In this document: positions 49,624 to 60,497 of the stretch, piece by piece
Numbering within the stretch: the first letter of the stretch is position 1
How the letters are laid out: each line of letters begins with the position of its first letter
Assembly: GCA_010671905.1 (NCBI GenBank)
Contig: JAAHII010000001.1
Coordinates: 186,001-250,000, forward strand
From: Leptolyngbya sp. SIOISBB
GTDB lineage: Bacteria; Cyanobacteriota; Cyanobacteriia; Phormidesmidales; Phormidesmidaceae
DNA length: 64,000 bases
Reading direction: 5' to 3'
The notes under the pieces: generated by a model
Told to the model about the DNA's origin: nothing
Databases searched by the model: none
The model's input: the letters and a program-made list of their open reading frames with translations, nothing else
Program-made: the position numbers and the translations under genes

Positions 49624-50985
49624 ATGGCCTACAACACCGCTGTCATGGAAGCCGTGGAGTCTTTGAAATATCGCGTCACGGTTGGTGATGTAGCGACTCA
49701 ATCAGGCTTAGAGTTGGCGGTGGCCCAACAGGGCTTAAATGCCCTTGCTGCCGATACTCAAGCACATTTACAGGTCTCCGACACGGGGGAAATTGCCTAC
49801 GAATTTCCCAAAAGTTTCCGCGCGATTCTCCGCAACAAATACTGGCGCTTGCGGCTGCAGGAGACCTGGGAGCGCATTTGGAGCGTGCTGTTTTATCTCA
49901 TTCGCATCTCTTTCGGTATCCTGCTGATCGTCTCCATCTTGGTGATTGTGGTGGCCATTTTGGTGCTGGTGATCGCGGCTCAAGCGGCCTCCCAAAAAGA
50001 TGACGATCGCGGCGGTGGAGGCGGTTTCGGTGGGGGTTTTGGCGGGGGCGGCATGGTGTTCATGCCCCGCTTTTGGATTGGCGATTTGTTCTGGCTATTC
50101 CACTACGACCCCTATTACAGTCGCCGTTCACCGTCTCGCCGCGCCTCTCGTCCCAATCGCTCTGGCCGTGCCGACGACGGCATGAACTTTTTAGAAGCCA
50201 TCTTTTCCTTCCTCTTTGGGGATGGCGACCCCAATGCCGATTTAGAAGAGCGGCGCTGGCAAGAAGTTGGGGCGGTGATTCAAAATAATGGCGGGGCGAT
50301 CGCTGCAGAACAAGTTGTCCCTTATTTGGACGACTTAGGTAAAGGCTGGTCTCAGGAAGATGAAGACTACATTCTGCCCGTTCTGACTCGCTTTAACGGG
50401 GTGCCTGAGGTGAGTCCCCAGGGCGATATCATCTACCATTTCCCCGAACTGCAAGTGACGGCGCAAAAGCAGCGCGGACGCATCGCCGTTCCCGCCTATC
50501 TCAAAGAAGCGCCGCGCAAGTTTAGTGAGGCCAAGATGGGCCAACTGTCGGGGGCGATCGCCCTCGGTGTCTTCAATTTCTTAGGAGCCATTGTTCTCGG
50601 CGTCATGCTGCAAGATCAGGCTCTGGTAGCCGAGATCGGTGGCTTTATCGGCTTTGTCAACGCGATCTACTGGGTGATTTTGGCTTACGGGGCGGGGTTC
50701 TTGGCGATTCCTGCGGGGCGCTACTTTTGGACAAACCGCAAAAACAGCCAGATCGAGTCCCGCAACGAACAGCGTCAAGAACGCGCCCTTGCCCTCAATG
50801 CTGCTGGCCCTGAGCTCGATGAGAAGATTACCTTTGCCCAACAGTTCGCCGCTCAAACAGTCGTCTCGGCTGATGACCTGGCTTATACCACTGAAAAAGA
50901 CCTGACTGAGCAGGAATATGAGCAGCGCGACAAGCTGGATGCCGAATGGCAAAAGCGCTTGGAATCTTCAGAAGATGCGACTTAA
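49624..50985 (+). CDS. Membrane protein with duplicated winged-helix-like domain
   Basis: A 453-residue protein without an assigned function. Residues about 5-65 (VTVGDVATQSGLELAVAQQGLNAL ... VSDTGEIAYEFPKSFR) and about 210-278 (GAIAAEQVVPYLD ... VSPQGDIIYHFPELQV) share a helix-helix-beta-wing pattern ending in D/Q-G-x-I-x-Y-x-F-P, so one domain is duplicated. A membrane helix (about 90-120) and a Gly-rich stretch (GGGGFGGGFGGGG) separate them; two more helices (about 305-365) and a charged C-terminal tail follow. I believe similar proteins are widespread in cyanobacteria. SD AAGGAG supports the start. Confidence 0.75.
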   Translation: MAYNTAVMEAVESLKYRVTVGDVATQSGLELAVAQQGLNALAADTQAHLQVSDTGEIAYEFPKSFRAILRNKYWRLRLQETWERIWSVLFYLIRISFGILLIVSILVIVVAILVLVIAAQAASQKDDDRGGGGGFGGGFGGGGMVFMPRFWIGDLFWLFHYDPYYSRRSPSRRASRPNRSGRADDGMNFLEAIFSFLFGDGDPNADLEERRWQEVGAVIQNNGGAIAAEQVVPYLDDLGKGWSQEDEDYILPVLTRFNGVPEVSPQGDIIYHFPELQVTAQKQRGRIAVPAYLKEAPRKFSEAKMGQLSGAIALGVFNFLGAIVLGVMLQDQALVAEIGGFIGFVNAIYWVILAYGAGFLAIPAGRYFWTNRKNSQIESRNEQRQERALALNAAGPELDEKITFAQQFAAQTVVSADDLAYTTEKDLTEQEYEQRDKLDAEWQKRLESSEDAT

Positions 50986-51105
50986 ACAGGGAACAGAACA
51001 CTTGACCGTAACGGCTGCTCAGGCAACGGTTACAGCACGTTAGCTCGACGTTAAATTAACCTGTATTCTCTCAGGCAAATTTGGGGTTGCCTTTAGTCTG
51101 AGGGC

Positions 51106-52188
51106 ATGACTATCTCTCAACCCACCTCTCCGAAAATTTCCTCTTCAACTTCGCCGAAGGTTCGACGTCTACGAGACAAAACTGTAACGCTGGCCCATGG
51201 TAGTGGTGGCCAAGCCATGCAGGATTTAATCGAGGCGCTCTTTATTAGTCAGTTTGAGGGCAAACCGCCGACAGCGCTGGAAGATCAGGCTCGCATTCCC
51301 CTCGATGAGTTGACAGCTCAAGGCGATCGCCTAGCGTTTACCACCGATTCTTACGTGGTTGATCCGTTGTTCTTTCCCGGTGGGGATATCGGCTCCTTAG
51401 CGGTGAATGGGACCGTCAACGACTTGGCGGTCAGTGGTGCCGTGCCTCGCTACTTGACCTGCGCCATGATTTTGGAAGAAGGTTTGGCGATTGAGACCTT
51501 GCAGCAGGTGGTTGCCAGCATGGTGAATGCGGCCCATCAAGCAGGCGTCAAAATTGTCACGGGTGACACCAAGGTGGTGCCCCGGGGCGGCGCTGACAAA
51601 TTATTCATCAACACTGCAGGCATTGGGGTAATGCGCCGGGGCGTGACACCCGCAGCGGTTCACATTCAGCCGGGGGATGCGGTGCTAGTGAATGGCCCCA
51701 TCGGCAATCACGGGGCGACGATTCTGGTAGCGCGCGAGCAGTTCGCCTTAGAAACGGAGCTGCAAAGCGATTGTCAGCCCTTAAACGGTCTGGTCGATGC
51801 CATTGTGGCGGTTTGTCCTGAAGTGCGGGCGATGCGCGATGCGACTCGCGGCGGGCTCGCCACCGTGCTCAATGAATTTGCCGATAGCGCTCAGGTCGGC
51901 ATTCGCCTGATCGAAGACCAGATCCCAGTGGATGATGCCGTTCGGGGCCTGTGCGAACTGTTGGGACTCGACCCCCTTTACTTAGCCAATGAGGGCAAAT
52001 TGGTGGTGGTCGTCCCCCCTGACCGAGTCGACACGGTCTTGGCGGCGATGCAGTCCCATCCCACCGGGATACATAGCCGCATTATTGGCCAAGTGATTGA
52101 TGGTCAACGGGTCGCCCTCAAAACCGGCTTTGGCACTGAGCGCATCATCGATCGCCTCGTCGGTGACCAGTTACCGAGGATTTGCTAA
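51106..52188 (+). CDS. hypE: Hydrogenase maturation protein HypE
   Basis: HypE dehydrates the carbamoyl group on its C-terminal cysteine to make the cyanide ligand of [NiFe]-hydrogenase. 360 residues. Signatures: TLAHGSGGQAMQDLI near 28-42, TDSYVVDPLFFPGGDIGSLAVNGTVNDLAVSGA, GDTKVVPRGGADKLF and the essential C-terminal PRIC with Cys as the last residue. The stop overlaps hypA (TAATG). The E-A-B order is the usual one of the cyanobacterial hyp operon; hypC, D and F are absent here. Confidence 0.96.
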   Translation: MTISQPTSPKISSSTSPKVRRLRDKTVTLAHGSGGQAMQDLIEALFISQFEGKPPTALEDQARIPLDELTAQGDRLAFTTDSYVVDPLFFPGGDIGSLAVNGTVNDLAVSGAVPRYLTCAMILEEGLAIETLQQVVASMVNAAHQAGVKIVTGDTKVVPRGGADKLFINTAGIGVMRRGVTPAAVHIQPGDAVLVNGPIGNHGATILVAREQFALETELQSDCQPLNGLVDAIVAVCPEVRAMRDATRGGLATVLNEFADSAQVGIRLIEDQIPVDDAVRGLCELLGLDPLYLANEGKLVVVVPPDRVDTVLAAMQSHPTGIHSRIIGQVIDGQRVALKTGFGTERIIDRLVGDQLPRIC

Positions 52189-52529
52189 TGCACGAACTGG
52201 GAATCACCCAAAACATTGTGGCGATCGCGACAGAACACGCCCACGGCGCTAAGGTCCGCCGCATCAGCCTCGAAATTGGTCAGCTCTCGGCCATCATGCC
52301 CGATGCCATTGAGTTTTGCTTTGACATCTGCGCTCAAGGCACCCCTTTAGAGGGTGCGACGTTGGAAATCATTCACGTTCCGGGTCGCGGCCAATGTCAG
52401 GCCTGTGGTCAACAAATCCCCCTAGAGCAGCCCTTTGGCGTCTGTGACTGTGGCTGTACCCACCTCACTATCATTCAAGGCGAAGAACTCACCATCAAAG
52501 AATTGGAGACAGAAGCTTTATGTGTGTAA
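52188..52529 (+). CDS. hypA: Hydrogenase nickel-insertion protein HypA
   Basis: Nickel metallochaperone of 113 residues. [11 protein letters not shown] gives the N-terminal nickel site (Met1, His2); the zinc site is formed by CQACGQQ and CDCGC. It starts at ATG 52188, sharing one base with the hypE stop, and its end overlaps the hypB start, so translation is coupled. Some cyanobacterial HypA homologues instead serve a nickel guanidine hydrolase; the hypE linkage favours the hydrogenase role here. Confidence 0.95.
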
Positions 52530-53446
52530 CCTGCGGCTGCTCTGACGGTGCCCAAGCGACCTATACCCGCCCCGGCGAATCTGCCTCCTCAACTCCTGAG
52601 GCGGAGAGTCATACCCATGTGCTTGCCGACGGCACGGTGGTCACTCACAGCCATGGTGGCCATGACCACGCTCATGAGTCTCACCATCACCATTCGCACT
52701 CGCAGGGGCACTCGGCGATCGCTGAGCCGGTCTCCGTAACGCCACCGGCGGAAGCTCATGCCCATGCCCACGGCACGACGCTAACGCTAGAACAAAACCT
52801 GCTGGCAAAAAACGATCGCCTCGCCGCTCAAAATCGCGATTGGCTGCAAGCCCGTAATATCACTGCGCTCAATCTAGTCAGTTCTCCCGGAGCGGGCAAA
52901 ACCACCCTCCTGGTAAAAACCATCTCAGACTTGCAAAGTGAGATTCCCATCGCCGTAATTGAGGGCGATCAAGAAACTGCGAACGACGCCGAACGCATTG
53001 CGGCTACCGGGTGTCCCGCCATTCAGGTCAATACCGGCACCGGATGCCACTTAGAGGCAACCATGATCGAGCAGGGTCTCGCCACGCTGACCCCACCCGA
53101 CAATTCTCTGGTGCTCATCGAAAACGTCGGTAACCTGGTCTGTCCGGCTCTCTTCGATTTGGGAGAGAACGCTAAAGTCGCGATGCTCTCGGTTACCGAG
53201 GGGGAAGATAAACCGATTAAATATCCCCATATGTTTCGGGCCAGTCAGGTGATGGTGCTCACCAAAATCGATCTGCTGCCCTACGTCAACTTTGATGTGC
53301 AACGCTGCCTTGACTACGCTCGTCAGGTCAATCCTCAATTGAGGATATTTCAGGTGTCAGCGACCACAGGTGAAGGCTTAACCGCCTGGTATGACTGGTT
53401 GAGAGCTACCGTATCAGTACCCAGTCCCGCTGGCATACTTGGATAA
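52520..53446 (+). CDS. hypB: Hydrogenase nickel-insertion GTPase HypB
   Basis: SIMIBI GTPase delivering Ni2+ with HypA. 308 residues. The N-terminus has CVTCGCSD (high-affinity metal site) and a long His-rich stretch (about 30-90) for nickel storage. The GTPase core has [11 protein letters not shown] near 115-125, [40 protein letters not shown] and TKIDLLPYV. It overlaps hypA by 10 bp and closes the visible hypEAB operon. Confidence 0.96.
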
Positions 53447-53841
53447 GAAAACCATGCCAGCCTGTCAATTTAGCGAAAAATTTTGTTCATTCGTGCTTCG
53501 CTGTTGGCAGCGTCCGGCTTCTAGTTGTCTATGACACAGTCGCACATACCCTTCTAGATTTTGCTCTCACTTGCTCCCCCGCCCCCTTGCCCGTGGCGAA
53601 TGGTGCAACTTACGCCGTTGTGTACTGATGCCTGAAATCGCCTCACATCTGGCATCTGGCATCTAGCCCCCATACCCAGCAGCCATTCCAACAACTTTTG
53701 TAGCATTCATCCCGATGCCAAATATTTCTTTGGGAAGGGTAAACGCTGGCTGAATTAGTTCCCGAGTCTACAGAGTCAAGTTTGCTCTCTCGGGGACAAA
53801 CAGGCGGCAATATTGCCATTTAGTGGGGCTCTCATTTTTCC
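53447..53841. other. 395-bp intergenic region after hypB
   Basis: No gene or RNA recognised. A C-rich patch (53570-53590) may be degenerate repeat sequence. Confidence 0.35.
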
Positions 53842-54261
53842 ATGAAATCTTATACCAAAGTTGCCATGTTTACGGTTGGGTCTACGGTCTCCTTGTCAGT
53901 CATGAGTGCAGCGGCTCAAGCACAATCGACGGGAACCGCAGCTGATTTGTTGCCGCTCGATCCAAATGGAGTCTCAATGGATACGTTGCCGGATCAACTG
54001 AAGGTCGTCGGCAGCGTCAGCGCTAACGTCAAACCAGAAGCCACCTACAGTCCTGAAATGTTGAATGCGGTGGCAAGTAACATCAACCATCCCAATCAAG
54101 GCAGCGACGAAGATGACACCCCTGATATTGGTGACCTGATTGATTTAAGCTTTGTCGAACAATTTATCGATGAAGATGGCAATGTCGACCTGCCGCTCGG
54201 TATCACCGTCTATGAGGCGATGGGGCAAACGTCTATTGGCTTTGGGACAGATTTTCGATGA
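53842..54261 (+). CDS. Small exported acidic protein, unknown
   Basis: A 139-residue protein with a clear signal peptide (MKSYTKVAMFTVGSTVSLSVMSAAAQAQS, likely cleaved after AQA). The mature part is acidic (SDEDDTPDIGDLIDLSFVEQFIDEDG) and has no cysteine. The C-terminal GQTSIGFGTDFR could be a beta-strand but is too short to assign to a porin. No family recognised. It precedes the long regulatory region of the symporter. Confidence 0.65.
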   Translation: MKSYTKVAMFTVGSTVSLSVMSAAAQAQSTGTAADLLPLDPNGVSMDTLPDQLKVVGSVSANVKPEATYSPEMLNAVASNINHPNQGSDEDDTPDIGDLIDLSFVEQFIDEDGNVDLPLGITVYEAMGQTSIGFGTDFR

Positions 54262-54760
54262 TGGATTAGCCCAATTCAACCGCCATGACTGCTGGACTGT
54301 GAACCACAGAATTTGTGTAATGTAGCAATCCGTCGATCTGTCGGAAAAACCGCGATCGCTCAAATCCATCATCCGCAAAATCTTCATTACTCTGAACGCT
54401 GTAGGGCCTCGCTCTTCCTGCAGGGTATTCTGCATCCTGAATTGCGCACGCTTCACTCTGTTACATCTGTTCTGCATATTCAGGATCTATCTGCCTGGAT
54501 ATCGCACAACTGCCAAGTAAACCTGCCGTCCTGGGGAATGTGCAGATGTCAGCCTCCCCTCACGTCATGCATAGAAGAACCTGGATAAGACGATATTATG
54601 TAGCGCCCATGACCCTTCAATCATAAAAATAGATGCGCTTGATACCAAATCGGAAATTATCTGAAGTTTTTTGATGAGTGTTTTAGAGGCTGCGATCGCA
54701 CATCACCCATTACTTCGAAGATCAACGAGTAAATTAACTCCTCAAATTTCATAAGTAAGC

Positions 54761-54803
54761 GTATCAAGAAATACTAAACTTCATTGGATTAGCTGTTAAA
54801 AAT
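54761..54803 (+). promoter_or_regulatory. Candidate NtcA-activated promoter upstream of the riboswitch
   Basis: GTATCAAGAAATAC (54761-54774) is an exact GTA-N8-TAC NtcA site. Counting 22 bases on leads to TAAAAAT at 54797-54803, one mismatch or one base off the TA-N3-T -10 element. The inverted repeat GCCTAAT (54849-54855)/ATTAGGC (54869-54875) lies between this promoter and the riboswitch. The NtcA box is exact; the rest is inference. Confidence 0.6.
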
Positions 54804-54930
54804 TCAATTATTGAGCTTTGAATATGCCCTGCTCAGGGAATGTTAGACGCCTAATTTTGATTAGGAATATTAGGCTCTCAGTTTTCAGTGCTGATACTTT
54901 TTCAGCCGTTGTAAAAATTTAAGAACTTAG

Positions 54931-55084
54931 CATCTAGGGTTCCGATCTGATGGCTTTGTCAGGTGTCTGGTCCAAGAGGTGCAGTCAGGCTTAAGCACCT
55001 TAAGCCTGATTCACGGAGGGATAAAAGCCCGGGAGAAATGGGTCAACTGAGAGTTGGCTCACTGTTCTTTCCCGGGCTTTGCTA
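54931..55084 (+). promoter_or_regulatory. Guanidine-I (ykkC) riboswitch with terminator-like expression platform
   Basis: Conserved ykkC landmarks appear in the right order: CTAGGGTTCCG (54934-54944), CTGGTCCAAGAGG (54967-54979), CACGGAGGGATAAAAGCCC (55012-55030) and GGGAGA (55031-55036). Just after the aptamer, AAAGCCCGGGA (55024-55034) can pair perfectly with TCCCGGGCTTT (55070-55080), a stem that competes with the aptamer P3; no long T-run follows. Ligand binding would block this stem and turn on the downstream symporter. The motif was matched from memory of the published consensus. Confidence 0.9.
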
Positions 55085-55145
55085 TATCTAAATGCTCAAT
55101 TTCAATGCTTCTAATTTGTGGTTTTAGCTCTAGGAGATTGAGAGC

Positions 55146-56648
55146 ATGGAGAACACGGCTTTTTCGTGGGGAATTATCACATTCCTTTTAGGTACGTTAG
55201 GCATTGGCGTCTGGGCGTCTCAACAAATTAAAGGAGATAGTGTCAATTTTTTGGTGGCGGGCAGAGGGCTCGCGTTGCCTTTGGCAGGCGCCACATTAAT
55301 GGCTCAATCGGTTGATTCCAATGCCACGTTGGGCAACACCGACCTCTCTTCAGAATTTGGCTTTTGGGCGGGAGCCGCACTACCAGTTGGCTTATCTCTG
55401 TGCCTACTGTTAACAGGGTTGTTCTTAGCCAAACCCATGAACCGTATGGGGCTAATCACCATTCCCGATTTTTATCGGGTGAAATATGGGCGCACGGTAG
55501 AACTGATCGCTGCTTGCATTATGAGCGTTAGTTTTTCCTTTTTGCTGGCCGGCAATTTGGTCGCTGGGGGGTTCATGTTCCAAAACTTTTTGGGCCTGAG
55601 CTATTTTGGCGGTATTACCCTCCTCGCCGTATTGGTGTTTGCCTATACCGTATCGGGCGGTCTGTTTGCCGTTGCCTATACCGATTTCATTCAGGTTTTC
55701 ATTGCGTTACTCGGCGCTTGGGGACTCTTGATTTATGTCATCGCTAACTTTGGGATAGACATTGCTCCTGGGATGGGGCCTTTGGGCTTTGAGCAGTTAA
55801 CCTCAGTTGGGGCGGGAGCCGCCATTAACTGGGCTAGCATCATTGCTCTGGGCTTTGGCAACATGGTCGCCATTGATTTTATGGCCCGTATTTTTGCCGC
55901 AGAAAGTCCAGGCACCGCCCAAAAGGCTTGTTTCGTCGCCTCTGCCGGAACGCTGATCGTCGGCATTCCCTTTTCGATTATTGCGTTAGGCGCAGGCGGC
56001 ATCTTTGCTCAAACCGGTGTCACTGCCGATGGGCCAGTGCTCTTTGCTTTGCTGGAAAACGTAATTCCACCGGTGTTGGGTCTACTGGTTTTGGCCGCTA
56101 TCTTGTCGGCGTCTTTGTCTACGGCTGATGGAGCCATCTTGGGCACTTCGTCCGTGTTGGCCCATAACGTGATGGGCATTCGCCATGCCTCTGGCCATCA
56201 TGCTGCCGGCGGCGATCGCTTATTGCTGATTACGCGCTTGATGGCCATTGTCATCACGATATTGGGTTGCTTTTTAGGACTACGCGTACCCCAGACGGGG
56301 GTGCTGCTATTGCTGGCATTTGATATGAGTTTTGCGGGTTTAGTCGTACCGCTCATTGGGGGGCTCTATTGGGCACGAGCCACCCGTCAAGGCGCTTTAG
56401 CCTGCATTCTGGTCGGCTCACTGACGCGCTTGGCCTTTTTCATGTTCATGCCCACGATGTTTGGAGTAGACAATACATTGCTGTACATCCCCAACGAGCT
56501 GTTCACTATTGACTTTGACGGTTTTCCGACGCTGATTAGTCCCATTGTGGGGTTAGTCGCGTTTGTCGTGGTCTCTCATCTGACCTATCGCCCTCAAAGT
56601 CCTGAAGAGCAAAGGGTTGAACTTTTGGAAAAGACTCACGCACTGTAA
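55146..56648 (+). CDS. Sodium:solute symporter, candidate guanidine importer
   Basis: SSF-family (SSS) transporter of 500 residues with about 13 membrane helices. Family features: FLVAGRGLALPLAGATLMAQSVDSNATLGNTDLSSEFGF, TIPDFYRVKYGRTVELIAA near 98-116, AYTVSGGLFAVAYTDFIQVF near 163-182 and ILSASLSTADGAILGTSSVLAHNVMGI with the Na2-site serines. It lacks the sugar- or proline-specific features I know. The guanidine-I riboswitch about 60 bp upstream points to guanidine as substrate or inducer, and import is the normal direction for this family. A HIP1 hairpin about 140 bp downstream may terminate it. Confidence 0.9.
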   Translation: MENTAFSWGIITFLLGTLGIGVWASQQIKGDSVNFLVAGRGLALPLAGATLMAQSVDSNATLGNTDLSSEFGFWAGAALPVGLSLCLLLTGLFLAKPMNRMGLITIPDFYRVKYGRTVELIAACIMSVSFSFLLAGNLVAGGFMFQNFLGLSYFGGITLLAVLVFAYTVSGGLFAVAYTDFIQVFIALLGAWGLLIYVIANFGIDIAPGMGPLGFEQLTSVGAGAAINWASIIALGFGNMVAIDFMARIFAAESPGTAQKACFVASAGTLIVGIPFSIIALGAGGIFAQTGVTADGPVLFALLENVIPPVLGLLVLAAILSASLSTADGAILGTSSVLAHNVMGIRHASGHHAAGGDRLLLITRLMAIVITILGCFLGLRVPQTGVLLLLAFDMSFAGLVVPLIGGLYWARATRQGALACILVGSLTRLAFFMFMPTMFGVDNTLLYIPNELFTIDFDGFPTLISPIVGLVAFVVVSHLTYRPQSPEEQRVELLEKTHAL

Positions 56649-56787
56649 TGATGGCGAAGCGCTGAATCCTCTGGGTAGACGGAGGGCGAATTCTCGAAGC
56701 GTTGCTCTACGAGGGTTTCAGTAAACTGGAGCGCCCTTACCCTAGGCGTGAATAGCGGTAGGGCCAAGATTGCTCCAACTTTCCATC

Positions 56788-56825
56788 AGCGATCGCTCCG
56801 ATGCCTGGAGCGATCGCTTGTTTGT
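56788..56825 (+). terminator. Hairpin made of two HIP1 octamers after the symporter gene
   Basis: AGCGATCGCTCC (56788-56799) and GGAGCGATCGCT (56807-56818) form a perfect 12-bp stem with a 7-base loop, followed by TTGTTTGTCT. It could end the symporter transcript. Confidence 0.55.
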
Positions 56826-56941
56826 CTATACCAGCCGCCGTTTGGCTAGGTCACCCTGGATTGCTGAAACTACTGTCTGGCAAGCATTTCGCCTTCCGAA
56901 CTCCGCCTTCTGCTATATAGCGACTACCTGATGAACGGTGG

Positions 56942-57982
56942 CTAACTCAAGTCGGCATGGCGACTCAGTTTTTTGAGGGTGCGGTGCATCTCGGGTAACC
57001 GCCGGAAGACCGCTGATGCCTTGAGAAACACTTTGTGCGGGAGAGCCGGAATGCCAGTAACGATTTCGCCCGGTTTAATATCGCTGTGGATGCCCGCTTT
57101 AGCGGTGCCGATTGCGCCATCGCCGATTTCAATATGATCGACGACACCGACTTGCCCCGCGAGGATAACCCGGTTGCCGATTTTGACGCCGCCCGCCATG
57201 CCTACTTGGGCGGCGATCGCGCAGTTTTCGCCAATCTTGCTGCCGTGGGCAATCTGCACCAGGTTGTCAATCTTGGTATTGCGGCCCACTTGGGTCGTGC
57301 CGAGGGCGGGGCGATCAATCGTGGCATTGCAGCCCACTTCGACCCCTGCCGCTAGCACCACATAGCCGGATTGGGGCATCTTGACCCAGCCCTCCGGTAC
57401 GGGCACGAAGCCAAAGCCTTCGGAACCGATAACAGCACCGCTGTGAATCACGCAGTCGGGACCAATTTCCGATCGCTCATGAATGACACAGTTGGCGTGG
57501 AGCACAGTGCGATCGCCCACCTTGGCACCGGCATACACCACCGCATTGGGATGAATCGCGACGCCATTGCCAATATGAGCGTTAGCCCCAATCACGACGT
57601 TGGCCGCGATCGCCACATCGTCCCCCAATTGCGCCGTGGAATGAATCTGAGCGGACGGCTCAATCCTCGAATCAGGGCGGACCGGCTGATAGAAACAAGC
57701 AATTGCCTGGGCGAGGGTTACCCGAGGTTCTTTGACGGCAATCCAAGCGAGGCCGCGATCGCTGGCCTGGGCCTGCAGCTCATCATGCAGCGGCAAAATG
57801 AGGGCACTCGCCTGGGTGGTGGCGATGTGATGGGCATACTTTTCGCCTTCGATATAGCTCAGGGTGTGGGCTGCCGATTCTTCAATCGCCGACAGTCCGG
57901 TCAAGTTGGGGTCGTCCGCTAAATGTGCCTGGGGATGGGCCTGGGTAGCGGCTAAGTGCTGGACGAATTCACTGAACTTCAT
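56942..57982 (-). CDS. lpxD: UDP-3-O-acylglucosamine N-acyltransferase, paralog 1
   Basis: LpxD-type acyltransferase of lipid A synthesis, 346 residues. An N-terminal UDP-binding domain (about 1-105, with AITQA-like ATTQASALILPLHDELQA) is followed by a left-handed beta-helix of hexapeptide repeats (IHPNAVVYAGAKVGDRTVLHANCVIHE), then GFGFVP, CNATIDRPALG and NLVQIAHGSKIGENCAIAAQVGMAGG, which holds the catalytic His, and a C-terminal helix. It lies 36 bp downstream of a second, similar gene (58019-59101). Confidence 0.9.
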   Translation of the reverse strand: MKFSEFVQHLAATQAHPQAHLADDPNLTGLSAIEESAAHTLSYIEGEKYAHHIATTQASALILPLHDELQAQASDRGLAWIAVKEPRVTLAQAIACFYQPVRPDSRIEPSAQIHSTAQLGDDVAIAANVVIGANAHIGNGVAIHPNAVVYAGAKVGDRTVLHANCVIHERSEIGPDCVIHSGAVIGSEGFGFVPVPEGWVKMPQSGYVVLAAGVEVGCNATIDRPALGTTQVGRNTKIDNLVQIAHGSKIGENCAIAAQVGMAGGVKIGNRVILAGQVGVVDHIEIGDGAIGTAKAGIHSDIKPGEIVTGIPALPHKVFLKASAVFRRLPEMHRTLKKLSRHADLS

Positions 57983-58018
57983 GGCAAGATCCTTGGCAAT
58001 GCGAGAAGAATAAAACCC

Positions 58019-59101
58019 TTAAGAAACTTGAGTATCAATGGCCTCAAGTTGCTGCTGTAGGGTCGCGACCTGCTGCTGCAACTCCTTCAAGGTGCGTTGC
58101 ATTTGAGGCAGGCGATTGTAAATCGCAGAGGATTTCAAAAACGTGCGATAGGGGCTTGCTGGATTACCCATAACAACGCTGCCCGGAGCGATCGTGCCGT
58201 GCAGTCCGGCTTTGGCTCCCGCTTGCACATTGGCTCCCACCTGGGTTTTATTCGCGGCCCCCACCTGGCCACCGAGAATGACGTGATCCGCCACCTCAAC
58301 TTGACCGGCCAGGCCCACCTGAGCTGCCAACACACAGCTCGGTCCCACCTGACAGTTATGGCCAATATGCACCAGGTTGTCTAACTTCGTATTGGCCTGA
58401 ATCCGCGTTTCACCCACAGAAGGGCGATCAATCGTCGTGTTGCAACCGACTTCAACTGCCGACTCTAGAATCGTGCACCCAGATTGAGGAATTTTTTCCC
58501 AGCGGCCCTCATGCAAGATAAAGCCAAACCCTTCTGAGCCGATCGCGGCACCGCTATGAATCACGCAGTCAGCACCGATTTGCGTCTGTTCATGAATCAC
58601 ACAGTTGGCATATAAAACCGTGCGATCGCCAATTGCTGTTTGGGGATAAATCACCACATTGGGATGAATGCACACGTCATCTCCCACCCTCACATCGGGA
58701 TGAACGACGACATGGGCGGCAATGGTGACGTTCTTCCCGAGGCGAACGGAAGGATCAATCACTGCGGTGGGATGAATGCCTGGCGCCGGTTGATAAGGCT
58801 GATAAAAGAATGACAGGGTTTGCGTAAAGCCCCAACGAGGGTCAGTCATGCTGATCCAAGCCAGCCCGCGATCGCTGGCCTGGGCCTGCAAATCGGCATC
58901 GGCGGGCAAAATCAGCGCACTGACTTGAGTCGTCGCCACATAAGCCTCGAACTTGCCGCCCTCGATATAGCTAATCGTTCCGTCTGTACCCGTCTGTACA
59001 GGCGTCACAGCGGTAATTTCTGGGTCGTGTTCGGGGGCGGTCTTGAGGCTAGAGTCGGACGCCGTGAGGCCAAGCCGCTGAACAATGTCACTGAACTTCA
59101 T
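58019..59101 (-). CDS. lpxD: UDP-3-O-acylglucosamine N-acyltransferase, paralog 2
   Basis: A second LpxD, 360 residues, clearly homologous along its whole length to its downstream neighbour (shared HSGA-IGSEGFGF, VEVGCN-TIDRP, NLV-I-H, AAQVG-AG). The catalytic His is retained in NLVHIGHNCQVGPSC. It differs in the N-terminal UDP-sugar-binding domain and in a longer C-terminal coiled helix (LKELQQQVATLQQQLEAI). It follows rlmD by 25 bp, so rlmD-lpxD-lpxD look like one transcript. Confidence 0.9.
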   Translation of the reverse strand: MKFSDIVQRLGLTASDSSLKTAPEHDPEITAVTPVQTGTDGTISYIEGGKFEAYVATTQVSALILPADADLQAQASDRGLAWISMTDPRWGFTQTLSFFYQPYQPAPGIHPTAVIDPSVRLGKNVTIAAHVVVHPDVRVGDDVCIHPNVVIYPQTAIGDRTVLYANCVIHEQTQIGADCVIHSGAAIGSEGFGFILHEGRWEKIPQSGCTILESAVEVGCNTTIDRPSVGETRIQANTKLDNLVHIGHNCQVGPSCVLAAQVGLAGQVEVADHVILGGQVGAANKTQVGANVQAGAKAGLHGTIAPGSVVMGNPASPYRTFLKSSAIYNRLPQMQRTLKELQQQVATLQQQLEAIDTQVS

Positions 59102-59126
59102 GACGTGTTAGGGAGAATAGGCTTTC

Positions 59127-60497
59127 TTACGCTACCAGAAACGCGACACACTCTACATGCGCCGTTTGCGGAAAAAAGTCGGCGGGTTGCACGCGCTGCA
59201 GTTGGTAGCCGCCTTCATCGCACAAGCGTTTCAGGTCGCGGGCTAGCGTGGCCGGATTGCAACTCATATAAACAATGCGTTGGGGATGCAGAGACAACAG
59301 GGCGCCGAGCACGCGATCGCTGCAGCCCTTGCGAGGCGGGTCTAGCACCACTACATCCGGCTGCCGATCTTGCAAAAATCGCGGCGCTTCCGGCAGCAGC
59401 TTATCCACGGTGCCCGCTTCGAAATGGGCATTGCTGATGTCATTTAAGCGCGCATTTTCGATCGCGGTTTCGATCGCTTCAGACTGCACCTCTAGACCTA
59501 AACAATACTGAGCGCGTTGGGCAAGCGGTAGGGTCAGCGTCCCAATGCCGCAGTAGGCATCGATGACAGTTTCTGTACCCTGCAGTTGCAACTCATCCAA
59601 AATCACCCGCAGCAGTCGCTCCGCCTGCTCAGTATGGACTTGGAAGAAGGTCGTGGGATAAATGTGAAAGGTGAGGTTGGCAAAGCGTTCTTCCAAATAC
59701 GGCTCACCAATCACGAACCGCGTTTCGGCTCCCAAAATGGCGTTACCCGGCTTCGTGTTGAGGTTAACGCAAACCCCGGCCAGTTCTGGAAAGCGCGTCT
59801 TCCAGTCACCGCATTGCTCTTCAATGCCGGGCAAGTCCCAGGTAGTGCTAACTAGCGTCAGCAGCACCTGGCCGGTGCGTCGTCCGACTCGCAAGGCGAG
59901 ATGTCGTAGATCACCGGTTTGCGTTTCTTCGTCATAAATTGACCAATCCCGCGCCTGAATGTCTTGCTTCACTTCCGCCAAGAGTGGATCAAGGCGATCG
60001 TCCTGGATCGGACACTGATTGAGGTTAATGATTTGGTGGGTGCCCTTGCGGAAGTAGCCCGCTTTCACCTTGCCCTCAGCCGAAACGCCGAGAGGGTAAG
60101 TGGCTTTGTTACGGTAGCTCAGCGGATTGTCGGCACCGATGATGGGACTAATCGGGACATCGGAAAAGTGACCGATGCGTTCTAGGGCATCCAAGACCTG
60201 CTGTTGCTTAGCCGCGAGCTGAGCTGAATACGTTACGGCCTGCCACTGACACCCCCCGCACTTATCCGCCACGATGCACGGTGGTCGGATGCGATCGCTG
60301 GAGGCTTGCAAAACCTCCAGCAATTGCCCCCGCCCAAACTTGGGTTTAACGAATACGAGTCGCGCCTGAATGCGATCGCCGGGTACCGTATCTGGCACAA
60401 AGACGACACGATTCTCCCAACGGCCTACGCCATCGCCACCGCTACTCAGGTCCGTGATATCCAGTTCTAGGGCGGTCCCTTGTTGCCATTGAGTCAT
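59127..60497 (-). CDS. rlmD: 23S rRNA (uracil-C5)-methyltransferase RlmD/RumA type
   Basis: SAM-dependent RNA m5U methyltransferase of 456 residues. An N-terminal TRAM domain (LDITDLSSGGDGVGRWENRVVFVPDTVPGD) is followed by the iron-sulfur motif around CIVADKCGGCQWQ, substrate-domain strands, FQVHTEQAERLL and VIDAYCGIGTLTLPLAQ (SAM site), and VVLDPPRKGCSDR and VYMSCNPATLARDL with the catalytic Cys. RlmD (U1939) versus RlmC/TrmA specificity cannot be separated by eye, but TRAM plus the Fe-S cysteines favours RumA-type. Confidence 0.9.
   Translation of the reverse strand: MTQWQQGTALELDITDLSSGGDGVGRWENRVVFVPDTVPGDRIQARLVFVKPKFGRGQLLEVLQASSDRIRPPCIVADKCGGCQWQAVTYSAQLAAKQQQVLDALERIGHFSDVPISPIIGADNPLSYRNKATYPLGVSAEGKVKAGYFRKGTHQIINLNQCPIQDDRLDPLLAEVKQDIQARDWSIYDEETQTGDLRHLALRVGRRTGQVLLTLVSTTWDLPGIEEQCGDWKTRFPELAGVCVNLNTKPGNAILGAETRFVIGEPYLEERFANLTFHIYPTTFFQVHTEQAERLLRVILDELQLQGTETVIDAYCGIGTLTLPLAQRAQYCLGLEVQSEAIETAIENARLNDISNAHFEAGTVDKLLPEAPRFLQDRQPDVVVLDPPRKGCSDRVLGALLSLHPQRIVYMSCNPATLARDLKRLCDEGGYQLQRVQPADFFPQTAHVECVAFLVA

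Follow-up and report, generated by a model that had tools for sequence, protein, structure and literature searches.

In Leptolyngbya sp. SIOISBB, a gene for a transporter of the sodium:solute symporter (SSF) family follows a Guanidine-I riboswitch. Since the switch precedes the SSF gene and relatives of the transporter adjoin a guanidine-degrading enzyme, this locus is probably a little-described route of guanidine uptake that provides a nitrogen source. We consider it quite likely that this SSF imports guanidinium driven by Na+ and is positively controlled by guanidine. With somewhat less confidence, but still as the likely account, we propose that its clade forms a third guanidine importer family, Na+-coupled and marked by the residue D57. 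The clade would have originated in gdmH operons and, in Leptolyngbya-like cyanobacteria, left them once to come under a Guanidine-I switch of its own. It would partly replace the ABC importer and have relatives with the same partner in Actinomycetota and with a related one in haloarchaea. The window, that is, the whole stretch of 64,000 nucleotides that we analysed, corresponds to C1:186001-250000 of the host genome (8.34 Mb, two contigs).

Riboswitch, leader and transporter

The initial annotation had recognised a guanidine-I aptamer from the letters alone. We scanned positions 50000-60000 of the window with the Rfam 15 models, and Guanidine-I (RF00442, ykkC subtype 1) was the sole match at gathering score (63 bits for this model; E 8e-15 in the 10 kb). 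The match covers the whole model (1-107 of 107) and starts 8 nt before the start given initially (Table 1). Lack of a covariance-model hit would have counted against the initial annotation, and the hit was obtained. Within GGTCCGAGAG an A replaces the model's conserved G, and the same was seen in 6 of 15 SSF aptamers. Three core motifs of the window aptamer were set against those of the host's gdmH-linked aptamer: one was identical and the other two had a one-base difference each. The base which discriminates between ykkC ligands (guanidine versus PRPP, ppGpp or others in subtype 2) is named in the part of PMC6031431 used here. The ligand of the window copy would be guanidine.

Table 1. Features of the riboswitch-SSF locus, in window positions
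Feature	Position	Strand	Evidence
Guanidine-I riboswitch aptamer (RF00442)	54923..55037	+	cmscan 86.2 bits
Terminator-like hairpin (expression platform), overlaps aptamer 3' end, short T run after	55024..55080	+	fold energy
Shine-Dalgarno-like AGGAG, 9 nt 5' of ATG	55132..55136	+	sequence read directly
SSF-family transporter gene, 500 aa, ATG; candidate Na+/guanidinium symporter	55146..56648	+	PF00474

The overlapping terminator-like stem described earlier was also recovered. The aptamer 3' end AAAGCCCGGGAG is the 5' arm of the hairpin and pairs with the later TTTCCCGGGCTTT, and the 69-base stretch holding the hairpin has an energy of -32.9 kcal/mol. The minimum-energy fold of 54923-55095 includes this hairpin, as expected for an ON switch that has no ligand bound. 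Hairpins built in this way, which share the aptamer 3' strand, were present in 15/15 leaders folded (the window and 14 named loci), the weakest being that of L004 with -22.2 kcal/mol. The leader appears to hold an expression platform that ligand binding could disrupt. Since the T run 3' of the window hairpin is short (CTTTGCTATATC), termination may be leaky. The ATG lies 108 nt from the aptamer end and 65 nt from the hairpin end, and the latter distance matches the 'about 60 bp' of the initial annotation. A promoter scan gave two sigma-70-like sites (1.9 expected), which both lie on the - strand, and we claim nothing from it. Like other Guanidine-I riboswitches, this one matches the whole model, and its hairpin overlap fits the usual ON logic. 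It differs from them in its target, an SSF transporter, which is not named as a target in the portions of the literature compared.

The gene behind the aptamer had been assigned to the SSF family, and its product matched PF00474 with 115.7 bits (gathering score 22.8). The protein stayed below the curated NCBIfam cut-offs of all nine models matched, including PutP (101.5 bits, cut-off 515.5), PanF, ActP, MctC and VC_2705; the superfamily model TIGR00813 gave 110.2 bits, under its cut-off of 184. The nearest solved chain was the choline transporter CHT1 (83.6 bits). It shares PF00474 and the Na2 positions with the SSF family (PutP, vSGLT, CHT1), whereas it falls under the curated cut-offs of the named bacterial families and is distinguished by an SVDxNATxGN motif (x varies), which was absent from 29 other SSFs aligned. 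The host genome encodes two further PF00474 SSFs which are not close (no other match at E <= 1e-5 in the protein search). In the ORF list the next gene-like ORF 3' of the SSF gene is on the - strand. Positions 56942-57982 and 58019-59101 (-) encode tandem similar proteins, LpxD-type acyltransferase-like by eye, an apparent duplication.

Residues A53, V56, A322, S325 and T326 of the transporter align to vSGLT A62, I65, A361, S364 and S365 (phmmer, 2xq2), which we take to be the Na2 sodium site, and coupling to Na+ would fit this alignment. All five are invariant in 40/40 clade members, window included. They do not single out the clade, since Na2-type residues are common among SSFs: among 29 other cyanobacterial SSFs, S325 was found in 25 and T or S at position 326 in 25. 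D57 is D in 40/40 clade members, while the same column in the 29 other SSFs holds S in 24, A in 4 and D in 1. It aligns to vSGLT S66 and is also D in the haloarchaeal and Rubrobacter relatives described below. An acidic side chain placed close to the substrate site, in the first helix, would be a fitting partner for the guanidinium cation. Since the AlphaFold2 model (alignment of 18: window and 17 relatives) had a low mean pLDDT of 42.9, D57 was placed by alignment only. Alignment A1 holds 17 of 18 named relatives (L017 omitted). For the residue counts and the tree, 40 of the 43 cyanobacterial SSFs were used, window included; the truncated SSFs of G169, G344 and G383 were left out, and G321, among the 40, has an odd N-terminus. 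The set of other SSFs comes from 30 loci, 29 of which gave an ORF via the clade profile.

Linkage to guanidine hydrolase genes

The host genome has a second Guanidine-I aptamer (C1:3306839-3306972, 82.4 bits). Behind it, on the same strand (L051), are genes for a 390-aa guanidine hydrolase homologue (gdmH), a HypA-like protein and a type III glutamine synthetase, followed by a HypB-like protein and the binding protein, permease and ATPase of an ABC importer; the names come from family and structure matches plus position. The GdmH homologue scored 836.8 bits to 7esr/7oi1 over residues 1-390 and 584.2 bits to 9fek. The PDB names of these entries are probable and putative agmatinase 2, and we take 7esr/7oi1 to be the Synechocystis guanidinase Sll1077/GdmH and 9fek to be a Nitrospira guanidinase. 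The glutamine synthetase gene inside the operon (L051 10682-12043, +) reached 582.7 bits against a cut-off of 469.6, and a similar gene is the first of a second switch-linked cluster in G236, one that includes the ABC importer (L097).

By these assignments the host has a gdmH-ABC operon of a known kind, plus an SSF under its own switch. The Synechocystis gdmH operon with hypA, hypB and ABC genes is sll1077-sll1082, as given in the part of PMC8390497 compared. Switch class, enzyme and nickel chaperones are alike in both organisms, and an operon of this kind, ABC genes included, is found in the host too, but the host carries an additional SSF with a switch of its own. This qualifies the initial description of a lone SSF symporter. 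The SSF is alone in the window; however, the second switch with gdmH and an ABC importer is another candidate route, and the SSF is therefore not the sole one in the host.

A hypE-hypA-hypB cluster (51106-53446, +) lies about 1.5 kb 5' of the window riboswitch. We considered it as a source of guanidinase chaperones and rejected it, since HypE is a sign of hydrogenase and a separate hypA/hypB-like pair is found at gdmH; the cluster probably serves hydrogenase maturation. In the relative G060, no hyp-like or GhaA/GhaB match was recognised within 8 kb of the SSF.

We searched one set of 388 cyanobacterial genomes for all four components. Guanidine-I was found in 205 genomes at E <= 0.001 (198 above the cut-off), GdmH in 160 (E <= 1e-100), the ABC binding protein in 177 (E <= 1e-70) and the clade of the window SSF in 43 (E <= 1e-100). 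For these 43, switch places were taken among the matches listed in the 388-genome search and from a rescan of 26 of the 43. In 25 genomes the SSF match has a same-strand aptamer 91-348 nt to its 5' side; of these 25 aptamers, 23 are above the gathering score and two are degenerate. In three of the 25 (G250, G371 and G223) gdmH is divergent from the SSF. In seven others (G378, G024, G193, G198, G233, G159 and G008) the SSF shares its strand with gdmH and a ghaB-like gene and comes after both; gene order and strand suggest that these are operons. The aptamer before gdmH is above the cut-off in five of the seven and below it in G233 (43.8 bits), and none was found in G008. Same-strand ORFs of at least 60 aa between gdmH and the SSF are nickel-chaperone relatives, save two other ORFs in G198. 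The remaining 11 (G032, G113, G195, G229, G222, G133, G152, G372, G235, G383 and G169) had neither a switch in front nor a nearby gdmH within 8 kb a side, or less at contig ends, and all of them have gdmH elsewhere in the genome.

The two decayed aptamers are at the usual place before an intact SSF (G356:C46:146584-146704, 35.1 bits; G236:C4:105849-105970, 29.1 bits), an apparent natural loss of riboswitch control. In G046 (L094 8069-8698) just the first 18 or 19 SSF residues are encoded after an aptamer, and unrelated sequence continues from there to the contig end; this would be either an interrupted gene or an assembly break. The stand-alone SSFs of L081, L082, L084 and L091, from one genus, have a 473-493-aa gene upstream in the same orientation; it belongs to the MFS family in both loci checked (L081 and L084).

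Whether orthologues share the switch had been raised by the initial annotation, and the outcome was positive: besides the 23 of 43 genomes above the cut-off, 14 of 18 named loci have it immediately before the SSF. The named set overlaps the 43, so that the counts are not additive. L008, L012, L013 and L017 of the named set had no switch at gathering score. As a control, none of 30 loci of other cyanobacterial SSFs (the best 30 by score) had a switch or any other Rfam match at gathering score. Since the switch was found at 23/43 loci of the clade versus 0/30 other SSF loci, the pairing is not due to chance.

The SSF also occurs together with gdmH. GdmH was present in 38 of 43 SSF genomes versus 160 of 388 overall (Fisher odds ratio 13.9, p 1.6e-11, genomes being treated as independent regardless of shared ancestry). 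Five SSF genomes gave no gdmH match at E <= 1e-100 (G188, G217, G321, G341 and G344); these assemblies are drafts, split into 250-1050 contigs, and in each of them the SSF is directly preceded by a switch that scores above the cut-off. The 160 gdmH genomes divide into 20 with SSF and ABC importer, 18 with SSF only, 106 with ABC only and 16 with neither, an association of SSF and ABC with an odds ratio of 0.17 (p 2.4e-5; Fisher test on the same assumption of independence). The two importers partly replace each other among gdmH genomes, and only partly, since 20 genomes, host included, have both. Unlike the Synechocystis operon, 18 of the 38 genomes with SSF and gdmH are without an ABC binding protein at E <= 1e-70. 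A different guanidine importer may be encoded in the 16 gdmH genomes in which, at the thresholds applied, neither the SSF nor the ABC binding protein was found.

History and distant relatives

In a tree of the 40 SSFs with 8 of the 29 other SSFs as outgroup, the 40 formed one clade (100/100). All 24 SSFs of the tree that have a switch before them, be it direct or degenerate, fell on a single branch (96/96), and the gdmH-linked and stand-alone copies fell outside it. The simplest story would be a gdmH-linked ancestor, one move out under a separate switch and decay of the switch in two relatives. As the tree was midpoint-rooted and several outgroup rows have very long branches, the direction of this history is inferred.

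Six plasmid records encoding an SSF of 50-57% identity were found by tblastn (E <= 1e-60). Plasmid records annotate the clade just as 'sodium:solute symporter family protein'. A plasmid of Rubrobacter indicoceani (Actinomycetota) has the order Guanidine-I (75.7 bits, L131 6512-6622), GdmH, SSF. This GdmH is 60% identical, with 9fek as the closest solved chain, and the SSF is 53% identical; the SSF is followed by a formamidase gene, which is on the opposite strand, and by urease genes. The SSF of Nonomuraea adjoins a GdmH-like stretch (62% over 357 aa), which is on the opposite strand and inside a longer frame that reaches into the SSF region. Plasmids of Haloarcula (two records) and Halalkalicoccus encode a 55-56% identical SSF with an agmatinase-family gene one gene away. 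The product of this neighbour is only 36% identical to GdmH; guanidinobutyrase and guanidinopropionase are among its PDB matches. Scanning of the stretches from Haloarcula sinaiiensis, Halalkalicoccus and Nonomuraea gave no Guanidine-I match at E <= 0.1. Beyond the haloarchaeal SSF, with one gene between, is a gene for an APC family permease (L129 10323-11753).

Substrate and direction of transport

The lines of evidence converge on guanidine: riboswitch, hydrolase and nickel chaperones point to it, as do the partial substitution for the ABC importer and the recurrence of the arrangement in another phylum. The initial annotation had proposed the SSF as a candidate for guanidine uptake, and this gains support from gdmH lying 5' on the same strand in 7 of 43 genomes and divergently in three, and from the partial ABC replacement. 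When guanidine is scarce, the nascent leader would fold the terminator and transcription would stop. When guanidine is bound, the last aptamer stem would hold AAAGCCCGGGAG, the terminator would be blocked and the importer would be made. The SSF would then import guanidinium together with Na+. The second host switch precedes gdmH and genes for HypA-like and HypB-like nickel chaperones, so that the imported guanidine would be split by the gdmH product into urea and ammonia, used as nitrogen source.

The SSF could instead import another guanidino compound (methylguanidine, agmatine, guanidinobutyrate or similar) which is converted inside the cell, with the switch sensing the product. A guanidine riboswitch operon serving methylguanidine is described in the part of PMC12508155 consulted, and the haloarchaeal neighbour is a more distant ureohydrolase with guanidinobutyrase and guanidinopropionase among its PDB matches. 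We find this unlikely, since the seven gdmH-SSF arrangements show no evident guanidine-releasing enzyme (the intervening ORFs are the nickel-chaperone relatives, plus the two other ORFs of G198) and since in the host the same switch class precedes a gdmH operon with an ABC importer.

Guanidine breakdown yields urea, so co-regulation would also be expected if the SSF were a urea transporter which takes up or recovers the urea made by the hydrolase. SSF transporters for urea exist (DUR3), and the formamidase and urease genes after the Rubrobacter SSF would fit such a role. The NCBIfam matches of the window protein included no DUR3 model. However, the SSF partly replaces the ABC importer of gdmH operons, the invariant acidic D57 would fit a cation better than neutral urea, and a guanidine-dependent switch would be of no use for urea uptake in general; we regard this function as improbable. 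Na+ symporters normally run inward, the Na2-type residues are intact, and the SSF, like the ABC importer, accompanies gdmH and nickel chaperones. Export of guanidine for detoxification is thus very improbable, although many bacterial guanidine riboswitch targets are exporters according to the sections of the review PMC12186494 used here. Uptake of guanidinium itself, directed inward, is the reading we prefer.

Guanidine import has been attributed to ABC and APC transporters (parts of PMC12186494, a 2025 review, and of PMC11410670, on comammox), and the words symporter and SSF are absent from the main texts of both as far as these were available. The closest parallel is Nitrospira inopinata, where Guanidine-I is upstream of APC permease-guanidinase genes and proton symport is proposed (PMC11410670, same part). 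In both cases Guanidine-I lies upstream of a transporter that does not depend on ATP and is linked to guanidinase; the Nitrospira protein is an APC superfamily permease with proposed proton symport, whereas here it is an SSF with Na2-type residues. Among the papers listed in the literature search, none was found to join guanidine riboswitches with a solute symporter: the symporter in the consulted part of PMC2211319 is under a thiamine switch, and those in the parts of PMC9943018 and PMC11477304 have no link to guanidine. The search did not cover Funck 2022, Sinn 2021, Nelson 2017 and the 2025 PNAS paper on cyanobacterial guanidine assimilation, which may list an SSF, and we do not claim absence from print. 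What we describe is a known guanidine regulon with a transporter from another family, and the transporter family is the new element.

The genetic link of the SSF both to a guanidine switch and to a guanidine-degrading enzyme was found in the genomes compared, and guanidine has been recognised as a bacterial nitrogen source only recently. If our reading is true, a sodium-driven SSF importer would be a third solution to guanidine uptake beside ABC and APC transporters. It might suit salt-rich habitats, given the relatives in haloarchaea and in marine-sediment Rubrobacter. D57 would be a directly testable residue of this candidate importer, and a substrate would be assigned to an SSF clade that plasmid records annotate by family name only.
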